The translations under genes and the position numbers were made by a program. This document shows positions 36,296 to 44,898 of a stretch of 64,000 nucleotides of DNA, piece after piece. Within the stretch, counting starts at the first letter, position 1. Each line of letters opens with the position of its first letter. The stretch is from Ilumatobacteraceae bacterium (GTDB lineage Bacteria > Actinomycetota > Acidimicrobiia > Acidimicrobiales > Ilumatobacteraceae), in contig JAJTFJ010000011.1 of NCBI GenBank assembly GCA_021298435.1, positions 1,936 through 65,935 on the forward strand. Direction: 5' to 3'. Below the pieces are notes generated by a model. It made no database searches. It had not been told where the DNA came from and was given only the letters and a program-made list of their open reading frames with translations.

Positions 36296-37501
36296 TTATC
36301 CAGCGAATAACGGCAAGAAGGTGTGTACGTCTTTACACTGAGCCAATGCTTTTGTGAACGTCGACATGTGCGCCGTCATGTTGGTGATTCCCTCAGCCGG
36401 GAACTCCACAACAAGACGCACCTCGCCATCGCGTAATGACACACGCGCACCCACCAATGCGTCATTGAGCTTGTTGATTTCGCCATAGACCCCCAGAGAT
36501 TCTGGGACATCGTCTGACAGGATTGCCGTGAGACGCACAGTCACCGACAAATCATCTAACTCATGCAATGAGACGTAGCACAGGTCGCTCTGATTGAGAG
36601 TGAAAGTCATAAACGATGGAATCTGCTGTGACTTCCAGTTGTCTACGTCAACGCCGACGTTCTTGAGTTCGCGCACCACTTTGTGGTTCCAACGTGCCAA
36701 ATACTCAGCATCCAACAAAATACGAATGCCCCAATCGTCACCGACGAAGTACGCGTATTCTGCATTTTCACCATCGATGAAAATGTGAGCGTCACCATCA
36801 CGATCTTTGGTCAGCAACACCGCAGCCATTTGGTACGGATAGAACGTGGCAGTAATTGCTCCTACTGTGTTTGCAGGTACTGAGCCCGTAAAGCGATACG
36901 AATCTTGACGACGCCAATCCATTGTCCACGCCAAGGTGTCCTTGTCCAGTGCCATCGCCACAAACGGCATTACGTCATTGGGTGGCCAATCGACTCCACT
37001 AGGAAACTTGAACAGAAACTTTGCAAATTGAACGATGTCGAGCATTCCGACTGTTGCAATCGCAGGAGTGCTTTCATCGCGATGAGGGTTTCCGAGATAT
37101 GGGAGATCTTGCCGCTTGAACTCCACGTTCTGTGGATGATCAATGGACAGATACGAACCATTATCCGAGCGCGCCACGATGGTGCCTTCTACCTCATTGC
37201 AGAACAAGTCGATTCCATCTCCTCCTGCAATCATCTCCATAAGTTGCTCAATGAAAAGCTCTGGAATGGGAAGTGCAAACGTGGGATCAGTTGATTCGCC
37301 ATCAGCTGTCACCCAGGAAAGAATCGAGCGATCGCGGATAATCCACAAACGCTTTCCGTTCTCTCCCTTTGTCACCCACACCACATGGTTGGGACGCATC
37401 TTCTGATTGATCGCGCTGAGAGTGAGATGCACTTCCAAGATTTCACGCAGTGAAATACGAATGCGCCAGTCGGAACAATTTGCTTCAAAATCCGGGATCA
37501 T
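36296..37501 (-). CDS. Unrecognised protein C: clamp-like repeats plus YbjN-like C-terminal domain
   Basis: A 401-residue soluble protein without signal or membrane segments. I read three parts: residues 15-135 and 140-265, each with a beta-rich pattern that by eye resembles one sliding-clamp domain (hydrophobic strand, then D-x-x-R-like turn, then a helix and V-x-L/F-x strands), and residues 270-401, which resemble the YbjN/type III chaperone-like fold (VVRELKNVGVDVD...GEINKLNDALVGARVSLRDG). It is a paralogue of the protein at 38153-39346: both share DWGIRI/SWGIRI and MPFV/LPFV blocks in the same order. Its ATG overlaps the upstream stop (TAATG). No function is assigned. Confidence 0.7.
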   Translation of the reverse strand: MIPDFEANCSDWRIRISLREILEVHLTLSAINQKMRPNHVVWVTKGENGKRLWIIRDRSILSWVTADGESTDPTFALPIPELFIEQLMEMIAGGDGIDLFCNEVEGTIVARSDNGSYLSIDHPQNVEFKRQDLPYLGNPHRDESTPAIATVGMLDIVQFAKFLFKFPSGVDWPPNDVMPFVAMALDKDTLAWTMDWRRQDSYRFTGSVPANTVGAITATFYPYQMAAVLLTKDRDGDAHIFIDGENAEYAYFVGDDWGIRILLDAEYLARWNHKVVRELKNVGVDVDNWKSQQIPSFMTFTLNQSDLCYVSLHELDDLSVTVRLTAILSDDVPESLGVYGEINKLNDALVGARVSLRDGEVRLVVEFPAEGITNMTAHMSTFTKALAQCKDVHTFLPLFAG

Positions 37502-37908
37502 TACTTGCGCACCACACGAACATGAGTAGACGGTACGAAACGCAATGACGCTGCATCGCCAACAATGCTCGGCCCGAGGTCGGGCTGATACTGGCTCGAT
37601 GATGGAGCTGCGACATCAATGTCATCAAGGATGCGGTAGACGTCGAGGAAACGATTGGACAACTTCATTCCAGACTTGATCGAGACCTGCTCGAAGCCGA
37701 TCACGAACTCGCCTAACTCTGTGCGAGCCAAATACGCCCAGTTACCGGTCTCGTTCTCAGGACAAGCACCGAGCACATCAATCATGTGACGGTTCAAATC
37801 GCGAATCTTTGGTTCGAGGTCGAGAACTACTTTCTCGATTTCTTCGATGCTCTGAGAAGGGTCAAACGGTTCGAAACCGTCGCCAAATGGGGAAGATGAA
37901 TGGGACAT
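37501..37908 (-). CDS. Unrecognised protein B (135 aa), coupled to protein C
   Basis: A 135-residue acidic protein with a helical first half (SIEEIEKVVLDLEPKIRDLN) and a beta-rich second half ending with basic HVRVVRK. AAGGAG eight bases before the ATG is a good ribosome site, and its stop overlaps the start of protein C by one base, so the two are made together. No family is recognised. The 244 bases upstream hold a possible -10 (TATAGT on the minus strand near 38070) and an inverted repeat. Confidence 0.65.
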   Translation of the reverse strand: MSHSSSPFGDGFEPFDPSQSIEEIEKVVLDLEPKIRDLNRHMIDVLGACPENETGNWAYLARTELGEFVIGFEQVSIKSGMKLSNRFLDVYRILDDIDVAAPSSSQYQPDLGPSIVGDAASLRFVPSTHVRVVRK

Positions 37909-38094
37909 GCAGATGCTCCTTGTGTAGGGAAATCGGTTTATTGGATGAAGAAAGTCCGAAAACTGAATCTCGGATAAGTCAGGCCGAGGCTTAGTTTTTG
38001 GACATTCGTCTGCACCGATCTATTGACATCTGCTCTCCTTTCAGGACGGTCGTATTTGGGGGGACTTAACTATAACAGGTGATTAGGGACTCAT

Positions 38095-38116
38095 TGACCT
38101 TATTAAGGAAAGGTCA
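38095..38116. repeat. Inverted repeat upstream of protein B
   Basis: TGACCTT (38095-38101) and AAGGTCA (38110-38116) separated by 8 bases, with an inner CCTTATTAAGG overlap. It lies between gene A and genes B-C. It could be an operator or a weak terminator of gene A; no T-run follows on the minus strand. The rest of 37909-38152 shows nothing coding. Confidence 0.5.
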
Positions 38117-38152
38117 GCCAAAATAACCGAAGATTTTTTCTCTAGACGATTA

Positions 38153-39346
38153 CTAGAGGAAAACACCGACAACCTCCGCAACAACTTTTGATTTCATCAC
38201 CAGGTCGATGACAGCTTCCGGTGTGAGTTGCATCTCTTCCGCAACAACGTCACGAATTGCAACAAGGTCAGTTTCATGACGAACCAATTTCACGTTTGTC
38301 CATTGGTTGTTCCAACCATTGATCTCTGATGCAATCTCCAAGTTCCACGGGGAGCCTGGAAGAACAACTGTGGACAAACGGAAGTAATCCTGCTGTCCAT
38401 CGAGGCCCTTCACGATCTCCACCGCAACATCGGAACCCTCGAAATGACAATTCACGGTCGGGCTCCAGCCGATGCGCTCGTCTTTGTCCACATCGATCTC
38501 GTTTTCAGACAGGGTATGCACCAATGTACTGCGATATTGATGCACGGTTTCATTACCTAATTCGATGCGGATGCCCCAGGAAATGCCATCAAGAAATGCA
38601 ATGTTCGGAGTCTCATCGGAGAAACACAGCTTCACTGACTCATTCCCATAGGTGTCTGAAAAAAGAAGTTCACGTGGCAACGCACTGGGGTATGAAGAGA
38701 AAGTTCTCGGAGTTGCACCTTCTGCAGTGATCGAGACCGAGATTGTGGGACCTCCAAAGCTTGTCCAATCGCGCTTTGCAATCAGTAATCCGTTTGAAAA
38801 GGAAAAGTCAACGAATGGAAGGGGTTCTTCTTGGTGATCAAAATCAATTGTCACGGGAAACATCAGATGGGCATGACCCAACTGTTGAAGCTCGGCGACA
38901 TCAACCGTGATGTAGGAAATTGCCGCAAATGAAAGGTCAATTGGGGCGATGTCTTGCTCTGGCAGATCTAATTCAACATTGAGCAAACCATTAACAAGTT
39001 CGATTTTCCCGTTCTTGAAATCAACGCGGACAATTGTGGGGAAAACATCGGGGAAGACATTGGTTGCGAACTCCAACACGTTGATGGGAAGAGTGAGATA
39101 CCCCTCAACTGGGCCACCATCTCGATCGAATTCACGAAACCCTGTGATGTTCTGCTCACGCATCACCCACCGACGAGTTGTTTCACCGAACTGCAACTGG
39201 AATCGAAATCCCATCCATGGGTCTGGTGCGTAGCGAACCGCCAGCTCCAAAATGCTCTTTGCCTCCTCATGGGACATCTCGAAAGTGAACTTCTCTGGAA
39301 GCCCAGCGGGATTATTGACAGCAGTAATGGAGGAAGAATCAGACAT
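38153..39346 (-). CDS. Unrecognised protein A: paralogue of protein C
   Basis: A 397-residue soluble protein with the same layout as protein C: an N-terminal region (20-140; FRFQLQFGETTRRWVMREQN, LTLPINVLEFATNVF), a second region (145-270; LPFVDFSFSNGLLIAKRDW), then a linker with SWGIRIELGNE, and a YbjN-like end (LSTVVLPGSPWNLEIASEINGWNNQWTNVKL). ATG 39346 is chosen; upstream codons of the open frame lack a usable start. It lies 96 bases after ilvD on the same strand, with a palindrome in the gap. Function unknown. Confidence 0.7.
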   Translation of the reverse strand: MSDSSSITAVNNPAGLPEKFTFEMSHEEAKSILELAVRYAPDPWMGFRFQLQFGETTRRWVMREQNITGFREFDRDGGPVEGYLTLPINVLEFATNVFPDVFPTIVRVDFKNGKIELVNGLLNVELDLPEQDIAPIDLSFAAISYITVDVAELQQLGHAHLMFPVTIDFDHQEEPLPFVDFSFSNGLLIAKRDWTSFGGPTISVSITAEGATPRTFSSYPSALPRELLFSDTYGNESVKLCFSDETPNIAFLDGISWGIRIELGNETVHQYRSTLVHTLSENEIDVDKDERIGWSPTVNCHFEGSDVAVEIVKGLDGQQDYFRLSTVVLPGSPWNLEIASEINGWNNQWTNVKLVRHETDLVAIRDVVAEEMQLTPEAVIDLVMKSKVVAEVVGVFL

Positions 39347-39376
39347 TGGATTCGCATCTTGACAAAGGGGTGCAAC

Positions 39377-39391
39377 AGGGTTTGAAACCCT
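39377..39391. promoter_or_regulatory. 15-bp palindrome upstream of protein A
   Basis: AGGGTTTGAAACCCT is a perfect palindrome around a central G, 31 bases before the start of gene A and 52 bases after the ilvD stop. It is too short and AT-rich in the centre for a terminator; a repressor site is possible. The binding protein is unknown, and no second copy was noticed near genes B-C. Confidence 0.4.
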
Positions 39392-39442
39392 TACCTGGCT
39401 TGGATTCCGCACATCCAAAAGTGGTGACTAGCCACTCCGCCT

Positions 39443-41152
39443 TTAGGTGGTGGGGTTTGTGATGGCGCCTGTTTCAGCACCTTGCACAAGCTTTGCGAAT
39501 TTCGCAAGAACACCAGTGGTGTAGCGCGGTGGGTTTGGCTTCCAACCAACTTTGCGCTTTTCCATCTCTGCTGCACTAACAAGAACATCAAGAGACTTCG
39601 ATGGCACGTCAATACGGATGGCATCACCTTCAGCGACGAATGCGATGGGGCCACCGTCAACAGCTTCAGGTGCAACGTGACCAATGCAGAAGCCCCATGT
39701 GCCACCAGAGAAACGTCCATCAGTAATGAGCGCGACTGTGGAACCCATTCCAGCACCCTTCAAAGCGCCTGTAATTGCGAGCATTTCACGCATACCAGGG
39801 CCACCCTTTGGTCCCTCGTACCGAATCACGATGACGTCACCATGATTGATTTTCCCGGTCATGATTGCATCCATTGCGCCATCTTCACCATCAAACACTC
39901 GTGCAGGACCTTCGAACTGCATCTGATCTTTTGTGAGTCCAGCAACTTTCACCACACTGCCCTTTGGCGCAAGTGAACCAGTGAGGATGTTGATGCCACC
40001 TTCTGCGTGAATCGGATCACTGAGTGGATGCACCACATCACCATCTGGCTGTGGTGGATTGATATCAGCCAAGTTCTCAGCCATGGTCTTGCCCGTACAC
40101 GTGAGGACGTCACCGTGCAAGAGTCCTGCGTCAAGGAGATGCTTCAACACAACAGGAACACCACCAATGCGATGCATGTCGGACATGTGGTACTTGCCAC
40201 CTGGCTTGGTGTCTGCAATGTGCGGCACTTTGTCAGCGATGCGGTTGAAGTCTTCCAATTTCAAATCCACACCCGCTTCATTTGCAATGGCAAGAAGGTG
40301 CAACACGGCGTTCGTGCTTCCACCTAAAGCATTAGTGATTGCAATGGCGTTCTCAAATGCCTTCTTCGTCATGATGTCGCGAGGACGAATTCCAAGTCGC
40401 AACATATTGACGACTGCCTCACCGGCACGTCGCGCATCATCTTCACGCGAACGATCAATTGCGGGCGCCGAAGCAGTGCCAGGCAAACTCATACCCAACG
40501 CTTCTGCGATGGACGACATCGTGTTTGCAGTAAACATTCCGCCGCACGCCCCTTCTCCAGGGCAAGCAGCCATTTCAATCTGCGTCAGTTCCTCTTGAGT
40601 CATTGTTCCGGCAGCAACTGCACCGATTGCCTCAAAGACCGTGGTGATATCGATGTTCTTGCCGTCGTGATGGCCGGGCATTGTTGAACCGTTGTAGACA
40701 AAAACACTTGCAAGGTTGAGACGAGCTGCTGCCATCAACATGGCAGGAATGCTCTTGTCGCAACCGGCAAGGCCGACGAAACCGTCAAAGCGTTCTCCGT
40801 GAACCACTGTCTCAACCGAGTCGGTAATAACTTCACGAGAAACAAGAGAGGCGCGCATGCCTTCGTGTCCCATGCTGATGCCGTCAGACACCGTGATTGT
40901 TCCGAACTCAAGAGCTACGCCACCGGCGTCACGAACGCCCTTCTTTGCATGCTCTGCCAAACGGCGAAGCGACATGTTGCAGGGAGTGACTTCGTTCCAG
41001 GCCGATGCGATACCCACCTGAGGCTTTTGCCAGTCATCATCGGTGAGACCCACGGCTCGCAACATGGCGCGAGCGGCGGCTTTCTGGTTGCCGTCAGTTA
41101 CGTCGCGACTGCGGGGCTTGACATCGATCGGGGTGCCGTCTGAAAAGGACAT
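39443..41152 (-). CDS. ilvD: Dihydroxy-acid dehydratase
   Basis: Fe-S dehydratase giving the keto acids of valine and isoleucine. It is 569 residues long. Three cluster cysteines are in TPCNM, AGCDKS and [11 protein letters not shown]; the last block and [15 protein letters not shown] are diagnostic of IlvD/Edd enzymes. It is separated from ilvBNC by about 7 kb. It is divergent from the iron transporter, with the operator region between them. The NfuA homologue may help load its cluster. Confidence 0.95.
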
Positions 41153-41265: not shown

Positions 41266-42297
41266 ATGAATTCACTTCAGAAAAAACTCGTAGCTGTTAC
41301 CGCGCTCATTCTGACCATCTCTGCCTGCGGCAGTTCTGGCTCCAACTCAGACTCCACCACACCGACAGCCGATACTCGACTCACCGTGTACAGCGGTCGC
41401 AGCGAGGAACTAGTCAAAGATCTCTTCACTGCTTTCACGACCGAGACCGGAATCTCAGTCGATGCTCGCTACGGCGACAGTGGCGAGATGGCTGCACTAC
41501 TTCTTACTGAAGGCTCCTCGAGCCCTGCAGACGTCTTCTTCTCACAAGATGCAGGTGCCCTCGGCGCAGTAGAGAACCTGTTTGCTGAGCTTCCAGAACA
41601 ATCATTGTCGAATGTTGACTCGCAATACTCTGCTGCAAGCAAAAAGTGGGTTGGTGTTACCGGCCGCGTTCGCGTTGTCGTCTACAACCCATCACTCGCT
41701 CCCACCCCACCAAACACCATTGACGGACTTCTTGATCCACAGTGGACAGGCAAAATTGGCTTTGCGCCAACGAATGCGTCATGGCAATCGTTTGTGACAG
41801 CACTGCGAGTTCTTCGTGGCGAAGAGGCCGCAGAAAAGTGGCTGACGGCATTCGCCAAGAACAAGCCAGTCGCATTTGAAAAGAACGGCGCAGTGCGTGA
41901 TGCAGTAAATACTGGTGAAGTCAGCCTCGGACTTGTCAACCATTACTACTTGCTCGAAAAGATCGCTGCCGAAGGCGCTTCTGCTGTGACGGCCAAGAAT
42001 CAGTTCATGGCAGCTGGCGACGTTGGCGGATTAGTGAATGTTGCAGGTGCAGGAATTCTCGCTTCAGCGAAGCACTCCGGCGCTGCCCAAAAGTTCATTG
42101 ACTTCTTGCAGAGCGAAACAGCCGCTGAGTACTTCAGAACCAGAACGTGGGAGTACATCTTGACCAAAGGCGCGACTCAAGCGGAAGGTATTCCTGCATT
42201 CGCAGATCTCAAGGCTCCCTCCATTGATCTCTCTGACTTGAAGTCACTCGACGTGACACAAGAGTTACTGCAGAAGGTTGGCTTACTCACGAAGTGA
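41266..42297 (+). CDS. fbpA: Iron(III) ABC transporter substrate-binding lipoprotein
   Basis: A 343-residue binding protein with lipobox ISAC (Cys21). TRLTVYSGRSEELVKDLFTA, SSPADVFFSQDAGALG, NDPQWTGKIGF-like LLDPQWTGKIGFAP and a late VNHYYLLEK (Tyr ligands for iron) fit the FbpA/FutA family. The metal boxes upstream support iron as cargo, though manganese cannot be excluded. The stop is 22 bases before the fbpB start. Confidence 0.9.
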   Translation: MNSLQKKLVAVTALILTISACGSSGSNSDSTTPTADTRLTVYSGRSEELVKDLFTAFTTETGISVDARYGDSGEMAALLLTEGSSSPADVFFSQDAGALGAVENLFAELPEQSLSNVDSQYSAASKKWVGVTGRVRVVVYNPSLAPTPPNTIDGLLDPQWTGKIGFAPTNASWQSFVTALRVLRGEEAAEKWLTAFAKNKPVAFEKNGAVRDAVNTGEVSLGLVNHYYLLEKIAAEGASAVTAKNQFMAAGDVGGLVNVAGAGILASAKHSGAAQKFIDFLQSETAAEYFRTRTWEYILTKGATQAEGIPAFADLKAPSIDLSDLKSLDVTQELLQKVGLLTK

Positions 42298-42319
42298 GTG
42301 GCCCAAACGAACACGAAAC

Positions 42320-43846
42320 ATGCGACAGACGCGCGCCTCACTGATCCCTTTGGGTCTCGCGTTTGTTGCAGCTTTCATTTCGCTTGTCCCCCTTTGGTAT
42401 CTCGTGACGCAATCTCTTTCGAAGGGCTTGCAACCATTTCTTGACGAGGTCTTCCAGGAGCGAACCCTCTCCCTGATTATTCGCAGCACGGTTCTCGTGT
42501 CAGCAGTGACGTTGATGAGTGCCATCATCGGAACCTTCACAGCGTGGGTTGTGACGTTGTCGGGTGTCCGCGGACGACTGATACTCACAATCGTTTTCTC
42601 ACTTCCACTAGCAATCCCCTCCTACCTGTCTGCCTTTGCATGGATCTCCTGGAAGCCCGGAATCTCTGGCTTCTTTGGCTCGTTCATCGTCCTGACATTC
42701 GCTTGCTACCCGTATGTGATGCTCCCTGTCTCTGCAGCAATGAGCAGACTTGACCCTGTTCATGAAGACATTGCGCGCACCATGGGACGTTCTTCGTTTC
42801 AGATCTTTGGTGAAGTGGTATTGCCGCAGCTACGCCGCTCGATCACGTCGGGATCGCTCCTCGTTGCCCTCTATGCCTTTAGTGATTTCGGCGCAGTCGC
42901 CGCAATGCGCCACGAGGTATTCACATGGGTGATTTACGGGGCATACCGTGCGGGCTTTAACCCAACGCGAGCAGCATCACTTTCTATCGTTTTGATCCTT
43001 GCGGCACTTGCATTGACATATGCCGAATCCATCACACGCGGACGCGATGATTCCGCAAAGAAAGCGACAACGGCACGGCGACGTCGACGGAATACTTCGT
43101 GGCCTCTTGCACTTCTCACATCTGTAGGAACACTCGCCGTCGTCATTCCCGGAGTAATCATTCCCGTTGCAAACATTACTTCGTGGCTCGGACGTAGTTC
43201 TTCACGATCCATTGACTGGAGTTCAGTGTGGAGCGCAACAGGACAGTCGTTCCTCAACGGCAGTGTCACTGCAATTGTGACGTTGCTGTTGGCCATCCCT
43301 GTTGCATGGAGTGCAGTTCGCCTCACGGGGAAACTCGCAGGCATCCCGGAACGACTGACGTACATCACTCATGCGCTTCCCGGAATCGTTGTTGCAATCT
43401 CGGTTGTGTATGTAGGCATCCGCGTCGCTCGGCCCTGGTATCAAGAGTTTCCTCTTCTCATCTTCGGCCAAGTCATTATCTTCTTGCCCGTCATGGTTGC
43501 TTCGCTACGTGCGGCCTTTGAGAAAACTCCCGTCGCTCTTGAAGAAGTCGCACACAGTCTTGGAGTGGGAAGAATCTCCACATTGCTTCGCGTTGCGCTT
43601 CCCATTGCACTCCCGGGAATTCTCGCTGGCTCAGCACTCTCCATGCTTGCTGCGGTGAAAGAACTCCCCGTCACCCTCCTCTTGCGGCCCACCGGAATGG
43701 ACACGCTGTCGACCAAGATCTGGGACTTCAGCACAATCTCCGACTACGCCGCAGTGGGGCCGTACGCAATTGCCATGCTGATTCTTGCTGCACTTCCCAC
43801 AGCCCTTCTTGGCACACTGTCCGTTATGAAAGATGCGTCTTCATGA
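42320..43846 (+). CDS. fbpB: Iron(III) ABC transporter permease (fused halves)
   Basis: A 508-residue membrane protein with about twelve helices in two homologous halves. EAA-type loops occur in each: EDIARTMGRSSFQIFGEVVLP and EEVAHSLGVGRISTLLRVALP (core parts). ATG 42320 is used; the frame reaches back into fbpA without a better start. Its stop overlaps the fbpC start by four bases (ATGA). The homologous layout to ThiP in this window is notable. Confidence 0.92.
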   Translation: MRQTRASLIPLGLAFVAAFISLVPLWYLVTQSLSKGLQPFLDEVFQERTLSLIIRSTVLVSAVTLMSAIIGTFTAWVVTLSGVRGRLILTIVFSLPLAIPSYLSAFAWISWKPGISGFFGSFIVLTFACYPYVMLPVSAAMSRLDPVHEDIARTMGRSSFQIFGEVVLPQLRRSITSGSLLVALYAFSDFGAVAAMRHEVFTWVIYGAYRAGFNPTRAASLSIVLILAALALTYAESITRGRDDSAKKATTARRRRRNTSWPLALLTSVGTLAVVIPGVIIPVANITSWLGRSSSRSIDWSSVWSATGQSFLNGSVTAIVTLLLAIPVAWSAVRLTGKLAGIPERLTYITHALPGIVVAISVVYVGIRVARPWYQEFPLLIFGQVIIFLPVMVASLRAAFEKTPVALEEVAHSLGVGRISTLLRVALPIALPGILAGSALSMLAAVKELPVTLLLRPTGMDTLSTKIWDFSTISDYAAVGPYAIAMLILAALPTALLGTLSVMKDASS

Positions 43847-44898
43847 GCACCTCACCCGCTCTTGAACTCACCCATGTCTCCCATTTCTTTGGGAGTACTC
43901 AGGTATTGAACGACATCAATCTGCAGGTGCGACACGGAAGCATCACAGCACTGCTCGGCCCTTCTGGGGGAGGCAAGACCACACTTCTTCGCATCATTGC
44001 TGGACTAGAACGCCCTCAGCACGGCACAGTGCGCATCGACGATGTTGTCGTCGCCGACGAAAAGACTTGGGTTCCGGCGCATGAGCGAGGTGTCGCGCTT
44101 GTTCCACAAGAAGGCGCACTCTTTCCTCATCTCACCGTTGCAGAAAACGTTGCATTTGGACTGAAGAAGCGACGCTCCGCGGCCGTGAAAATCCGCGTTG
44201 CAGAGATGCTTGAACTTGTCGGGCTTCCACAATCTGGCAACGTCCGTCCTTCGGAGTTGTCTGGCGGAATGCAACAACGTGTTGCACTTGCACGCGCTCT
44301 TGCAACACAACCCACTCTGGTCCTCCTCGATGAACCCTTCTCCGCTCTCGACGCTGGACTGCGTGAATCTCTTCGTGATCAAGTGGTCGACATTCTCCGA
44401 GCTGCATCAGCCACTGCCATTTGGGTCACACACGACCAAGACGAGGCGCTTTCCATTGCAGACTCTGTGGCAGTTCTTCTCGATGGACGCATTGCCCAGA
44501 AATCTGATCCTGTCAGCGTGTACCGAACACCGCAATCACCTGAGGTTGCGCATTTCATTGGCGAGACTGTTCCCTTCGATGGGACTGTTTTGGGAGACAG
44601 CGAGTCCGTCCAGACACGATTCGGAAACATCGGGTTACTGCAACCACATCAACCAGGGCAAGCGACAATTCTGATTCGTCCTGAACAGTTTGAGATTGTG
44701 GCTGCTGATAGCCCTGAAGCAACTGTTGTCGGTGAAGTGACCGCAACTCGTTACTTCGGCCACGATGGCACAGTTGAAGTTCAATTAGCTGATGGTGTTG
44801 TCGCAACAGTTCGATTGCATGCACGACTTCTTCCCGATGTGGGATCTTCCGTTGGGGTCATTGTGAATGGACGCGTTCTCGCTTTCCAACCTGCGTAG
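43843..44898 (+). CDS. fbpC: Iron(III) ABC transporter ATP-binding protein
   Basis: A 351-residue ATPase: Walker A GPSGGGKTT, Q-loop VPQEGALFPHLT, signature LSGGMQQR, Walker B LVLLDEPFSALD and switch His WVTHDQDEAL. The C-terminal 110 residues form TOBE-like regulatory strands (ILIRPEQFEIV). ThiQ-type ATPases belong to the same group, so this protein could also energise ThiP, whose operon lacks an ATPase. It converges on the acyl-CoA dehydrogenase gene with a 2-base gap. Confidence 0.92.
   Translation: MSTSPALELTHVSHFFGSTQVLNDINLQVRHGSITALLGPSGGGKTTLLRIIAGLERPQHGTVRIDDVVVADEKTWVPAHERGVALVPQEGALFPHLTVAENVAFGLKKRRSAAVKIRVAEMLELVGLPQSGNVRPSELSGGMQQRVALARALATQPTLVLLDEPFSALDAGLRESLRDQVVDILRAASATAIWVTHDQDEALSIADSVAVLLDGRIAQKSDPVSVYRTPQSPEVAHFIGETVPFDGTVLGDSESVQTRFGNIGLLQPHQPGQATILIRPEQFEIVAADSPEATVVGEVTATRYFGHDGTVEVQLADGVVATVRLHARLLPDVGSSVGVIVNGRVLAFQPA

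Follow-up and report, generated by a model that had tools for sequence, protein, structure and literature searches.

Three genes, here called A, B and C, lie together on the reverse strand of the window, by which we mean the whole 64,000-nucleotide stretch of Ilumatobacteraceae DNA that was analysed. They are placed as follows:

38153..39346, (-): A, clamp-clamp-TY chaperone protein of 397 aa (P0001), from ORF reading and models
37501..37908, (-): B, putative small partner protein of 135 aa (P0002)
36296..37501, (-): C, clamp-clamp-TY chaperone protein of 401 aa (P0003), translationally coupled to B

A is probably leaderless and transcribed from its own promoter. B and C share a single base (TAATG), in agreement with the translational coupling proposed in the earlier note. 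The note had also read a common block order in A and C, which was recovered in both proteins (LPFV, SWGIRI and EINGWNN in A; MPFV, DWGIRI and EINKLND in C), and their similarity is detectable by BLASTP, with 23% identity over 316 aa at an E value of 2e-13. A and C are true paralogues, and the A-type proteins of the genus form a single group with full support in the tree. Since dN/dS against the nearest relatives is 0.04-0.09 for both, A and C are real genes under purifying selection. Searches of A, B and C against Pfam, NCBIfam, PADLOC and the sequences of solved structures returned only weak TY-Chap1/YbjN matches.

In order to describe the domain structure of the two large proteins, we used sequence profiles, together with AlphaFold2 models that were built from small alignments and reached a pLDDT of 83.8 and pTM of 0.70 for A, and a pLDDT of 82 and pTM of 0.77 for C. 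Both models have the same three-domain fold, and no sign of unrelated folds was seen. The domains are assigned as follows:

38552..39298, (-): A residues 17-265, two sliding-clamp domains, from structural superposition
38156..38551, (-): A residues 266-397, YbjN/TY-type domain, from the secondary structure of the model, a weak Pfam YbjN match and homology to C
36707..37477, (-): C residues 9-265, two clamp-type domains, the first at lower confidence, from domain 2 against PCNA and from hhalign
36305..36706, (-): C residues 266-399, TY-Chap1/YbjN-type chaperone domain, from structural matches and a sub-cut-off Pfam match

Residues 17-266 of A superpose on residues 123-366 (domains II-III) of the E. 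coli beta clamp with a Z score of 18.1 and an rmsd of 3.6 over 234 aa; the fit to PCNA and to domains I-II of other DnaN proteins is almost as good. For C, domain 2 matches PCNA with a Z score of 11.3 and an rmsd of 2.1; the first domain is less certain in the model and, unlike in A, the two domains are not arranged as in a clamp. Since Foldseek gave only a high rmsd (~19) across both, the clamp claims for C rest on domain 2 and on homology to A. In hhalign the family profile scored 44.5 against DnaN, where 40 column shuffles reached at most 19.2. Domains 1 and 2 could be aligned with one another and with DnaN, domain 3 with neither. In a phylum-wide search of 396 genomes the same profile also matched three genuine dnaN genes adjoining dnaA or recF, and the only matches in a viral structure library were the clamps of phages and large viruses. 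The curated Pfam clamp models (PF00712, PF02767 and PF02768) gave no match in A, C or 15 relatives. The clamp reading is supported by the predicted fold together with a weak but specific sequence similarity.

The last third of each protein is of a different kind. Residues 270-397 of C matched AmyR (Z 12.3), E. coli YbjN (Z 12.3), DR1245 (Z 11.4) and SigE (Z 11.3), and type III secretion chaperones were also among the structural matches. At the sequence level, C matched Pfam TY-Chap1 (PF22551) at 1.2e-4 and 22 bits, below the cut-off of 27, and A matched Pfam YbjN (PF10722) at 0.15 and 12.7 bits, below the cut-off of 22. TY-Chap1 was matched in 15 of the 17 members, at best with 9.3e-6, and in L103-L105 at 1.7e-21 to 3.3e-29 (77-102 bits). 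These three distant relatives, from related families, carry a DUF3293 domain after TY-Chap1 (L103:8808-10499, L104:8262-9815, L105:4319-5884), and the clamp-clamp-TY-Chap1-DUF3293 genes of L103 and L105 lie near a gene that by eye is VWA-like; the one near the L103 protein had no Pfam match at 0.01, and DUF3293 was not mentioned in the open-licence papers searched. On the predicted fold and a published prediction, the tail may act as a chaperone. The two beta-rich clamp-type repeats and the YbjN-like tail that the earlier note had read by eye are thus supported by profiles and by predicted structures, and it is almost certain that A and C consist of two sliding-clamp domains of PCNA/DnaN type followed by a YbjN/TY-type chaperone domain.

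The B-C unit was found to have further features:

37504..37530, (-): B residues 127-135 (STHVRVVRK), C-terminal motif, from an alignment of relatives
38069..38077, (-): candidate extended -10 (TGTTATAGT) of the B-C unit, from sequence reading
37991..38029, (-): 12-codon upstream ORF MSIDRCRRMSKN with an AAGGAG Shine-Dalgarno, at the same position in relatives
37955..37974, (-): candidate attenuator hairpin, an inverted repeat (TCCGA..TCGGA) lying downstream of the short ORF and upstream of B

In relatives, B directly precedes C wherever the contig reaches, which fits the cluster proposed earlier. Throughout the genus a B-like gene stands directly upstream of a large gene, nearly always with a 1- or 4-base overlap, and the same pair is found elsewhere in the class, in other families (L094, L095, L097, L099, L100 and L102). 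Homology between B proteins extends beyond the genus (hhalign probability 89, score 41, with 60 shuffles reaching at most 14.5), and the C-terminal histidine is kept in 20 of 21 aligned relatives; the upstream gene in L096 and L098 has little beyond the B-type tail in common. Read from these sequences, the constant and older unit is B with its translationally coupled large gene, and A is a second large gene. In two genomes (L054, L058) the A-type gene has a B' of its own, so that A of the window, which has no B of its own in this lineage, most simply lost its B' and may share B with C. Upstream ORFs precede B in 13 loci, lying ~115-130 nt upstream with a strong Shine-Dalgarno; they have 11-13 codons and are mostly Arg-rich (for example MLRFRLIRMSKN, MSKRRFIGQSTI, MFRRRHKISQI and MSERRRHLRKI), and they are absent where B directly follows ilvD. 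The B-C leader folds 2.9 sd below shuffles, the best fold using a competing stem. The upstream ORF and the hairpin that follows it in the window are a candidate leader-peptide attenuator.

The relatives, which were searched with a closer alignment instead of the genus-wide one, are freshwater Ilumatobacteraceae/Acidimicrobiaceae MAGs. In the genus the module occupies a fixed site between ilvD and an inositol-phosphate-synthase gene, and it is missing from that site in five related genomes. A, B and C diverge far faster than the neighbouring genes, yet all three are under purifying selection; identity to G001 is 31% for A and 49% for C, against 92% for ilvD. When positions 36296-41152 of the window were compared with L049, A, B and C were 99-100% identical to G014 and the adjoining ilvD 91%. 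Such a mosaic suggests a recombination border between ilvD and A. Between ilvD and an acyl-CoA dehydrogenase gene, positions 41266-44898 (+) of the window read as an ABC transporter with a solute-binding protein; at that place G003, G008, G009, G013 and G025 encode just one membrane protein, which begins with MGASFLITLREGLE and looks by eye like an iron permease of FTR1 type. A mobile element is not favoured, the module lying at one site between conserved genes in the genus. A scan of IMG/VR with the C-type alignment found no relative, and the PADLOC models gave no match.

The neighbours of B-C in other genomes connect the module to the removal of ADP-ribose. ARG-centric systems with Nudix regulators, phosphatases, VWA proteins and TY-Chap1-3 have been predicted to counter ADP-ribosylation (PMC9503650); TY-Chap1 was defined in these systems, which were read as conflict systems (PMC9503650). 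In G021 (L060) an ADP-ribosylglycohydrolase-phosphatase, a Nudix-NrtR regulator and an HD protein stand beside B-C, and G020 (L061) has by similarity the same neighbours. NrtR adjoins C in G031 (L059), L099 of another family has genes for a glycohydrolase-VWA protein and for NrtR next to B-C, and Nudix-NrtR adjoins the module in L096 and L098. In the window's own genome the VWA, NrtR and glycohydrolase-phosphatase genes are found on contig C20, unlinked from the module. The glycohydrolase-phosphatase (L196:4399-5889, on another contig of the same genome) matches PF03747 at 5.2e-56 and DSPc at 8.1e-9, and the divergent regulator gene (L196:3525-4295) encodes NUDIX and NrtR_WHD. An AAA ATPase gene, most copies with AAA_lid_6, directly follows the glycohydrolase in three genomes (L206:2698-4110, L199:5887-7311, L201:2132-3595), and is not at that position in the window's genome.

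Among 32 genomes of the genus, the glycohydrolase was present in 17 of the 23 with the module and in none of the 9 without it (Fisher 1.8e-4, or 0.003 for genomes at least 80% complete), p values which ignore phylogeny and include several incomplete genomes. Of the six module-carrying genomes in which the enzyme was not found, most are incomplete MAGs; G007, however, has a completeness of 91%. In a tree of ilvD and INO1, four of the genomes negative for both nest with G025 and G009, in which both are present, and G026 stands separately. Judged from this tree, the joint absences are independent at least twice. Being kept or lost with enzymes that strip ADP-ribose suggests that the module is a component, so far overlooked, of a bacterial system predicted to serve in stress or defence, and we consider it likely that it belongs with the ARG-centric ADP-ribose-removal system.

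A sequence element shared by the promoters bears on the same connection:

39356..39372, (-): promoter element of A, CACCCC-N2-TGTCAAGAT, also present at the ADP-ribosylglycohydrolase promoter on contig C20

In several genomes the sequence upstream of A, of B or B' and of the glycohydrolase reads CACCC(C), then a short gap, then an extended -10. Our first promoter regex performed at chance level in the window (12 matches, 14 expected), and for this reason we turned to a stricter pattern and to counts over whole genomes. This tight pattern, which had been derived from the very two sites that it went on to match, has two matches in the 1.53 Mb of the window's genome, ahead of A and of the glycohydrolase. 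With a looser pattern there were exactly two matches in G003, again ahead of A and of the glycohydrolase, and G013 gave the VWA and glycohydrolase promoters; overall there was about one further unrelated-looking site per genome, and two other matches in G000 and one checked in G031 showed no connection with the system. In 427 kb scanned there were 54 sites against ~24 expected, ~22 of them before these genes, from many of which the motif had been read. The B-C promoter of the window lacks a clean copy of the element.

Based on these observations, we propose that A, B and C make up the arm of an ARG-centric system that handles clients, and that they are co-regulated with the enzymes of the system; to this account we give a probability of about 60%. 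A and C would be PCNA-sized pairs of clamp domains carrying a C-terminal type III secretion/YbjN-type (TY) peptide-binding domain, and B, encoded on the same message as C and bearing the conserved His-containing tail, would be their dedicated small ligand or adaptor. The enzyme arm, encoded elsewhere in the genome, would comprise the ADP-ribosylglycohydrolase-phosphatase fusion, VWA and sometimes the AAA ATPase, and both arms would be held off by an ADP-ribose-sensing Nudix-winged-helix (NrtR-type) repressor. ADP-ribosylation of macromolecules by a phage or toxin enzyme, or under NAD stress, would lead to released ADP-ribose and lift the repression. The TY domain would then hold a modified or misfolded client, with the clamp domains serving as a rigid docking scaffold or DNA tether, and the glycohydrolase-phosphatase would remove and break down the ADP-ribose. 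This repressor and client mechanism is tentative, and the odds are somewhat against it: NrtR is presumed to bind the shared element, B may bind its large partner, and the clients may be ADP-ribosylated. It is rather improbable that the full version holds, in which a clamp protomer with a secretion-type chaperone as its third domain and B as its partner holds ADP-ribosylated proteins or DNA for the glycohydrolase and is co-induced by the ADP-ribose-sensing repressor.

The clamp half lends itself to other readings. A and C, with or without B, might form a ring around DNA and act as a specialised sliding clamp, through which the chaperone domain and the glycohydrolase would reach stalled forks or ADP-ribosylated DNA. 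The clamp domains of A are placed as in a PCNA protomer or DnaN, the chaperone domain stands where DnaN has its third domain, and components directed at DNA, among them REases and helicases, occur in other ARG-centric systems (PMC9503650). However, the helices of the inner face carry less positive charge than those of DnaN, with a charge sum of ~-0.6 against +0.8 to +1.5, and the mean net charge of the clamp half is -18, values which are suggestive only; nor was a clamp loader recognised among the neighbours examined. We regard a DNA ring as unlikely. It is very improbable that the clamp half is a DnaN decoy which soaks up phage or toxin proteins aimed at the replication clamp: the link to the glycohydrolase and B would be left unexplained, even though a clamp fold free of detectable similarity to the clamp models, its rapid divergence, the known phage beta clamp inhibitors and the presence of the Gp168-clamp complex among the structural matches of A would all suit it.

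A further possibility is that the module and the glycohydrolase locus perform ordinary NAD/ADP-ribose housekeeping or stress repair and take no part in conflicts with phages or toxins. Regulators of the NrtR type are sensors of ADP-ribose or NAD state, and the purifying selection on A, B and C, the fixed chromosomal site and the zero PADLOC model matches would be in line with such a role. Fast divergence, patchy presence among sister species and turnover of paralogues are, however, more typical of conflict or accessory systems, and a role in conflict is what the published analysis assigns to ARG-centric systems (PMC9503650), so that housekeeping alone appears doubtful to us.

The client-handling arm that we prefer resembles the published ARG-centric systems with TY-Chap1 (PMC9503650) in its Nudix-type regulator, glycohydrolase-phosphatase, VWA, HD and TY-Chap1-like proteins. 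These are adjacent in some relatives; the chaperone gene adjoins genes of the ARG system in G020, G021 and L099, and is unlinked in the window's genome. It differs from them (PMC9503650) in that the chaperone protein has two clamp domains, a coupled B and two paralogues, and in that the enzyme genes are unlinked; clamp, PCNA and DnaN are absent from the main text of PMC9503650. With DnaN and PCNA, A and C share the fold and order of two clamp domains, in A arranged as in a clamp protomer, but they join two clamp domains to a chaperone domain where those proteins have two or three clamp domains, and they have no clamp Pfam match. A separate dnaN is present in most of the genus genomes tested. 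The fold of the last third is that of the YbjN family (AmyR, DR1245) and the type III secretion chaperones (SigE, SycT, CesT), with Z scores of 10-12, although those are stand-alone proteins of ~110-150 aa and in A and C the domain follows clamp domains within one chain. A sliding clamp joined to a YbjN or TY chaperone was not found in the open-licence papers searched. TY-Chap1 in ARG-centric systems is already known; no paper that could be searched describes the clamp half, B, the shared element or the joint loss.

These findings give a structure-based identity to unannotated proteins of freshwater actinobacteria, and tie A, B and C to a predicted ADP-ribose-removal system. The fusion of clamp and chaperone is an architecture not described in the literature searched, and the shared promoter element, together with the joint losses, defines a small and directly testable regulon.
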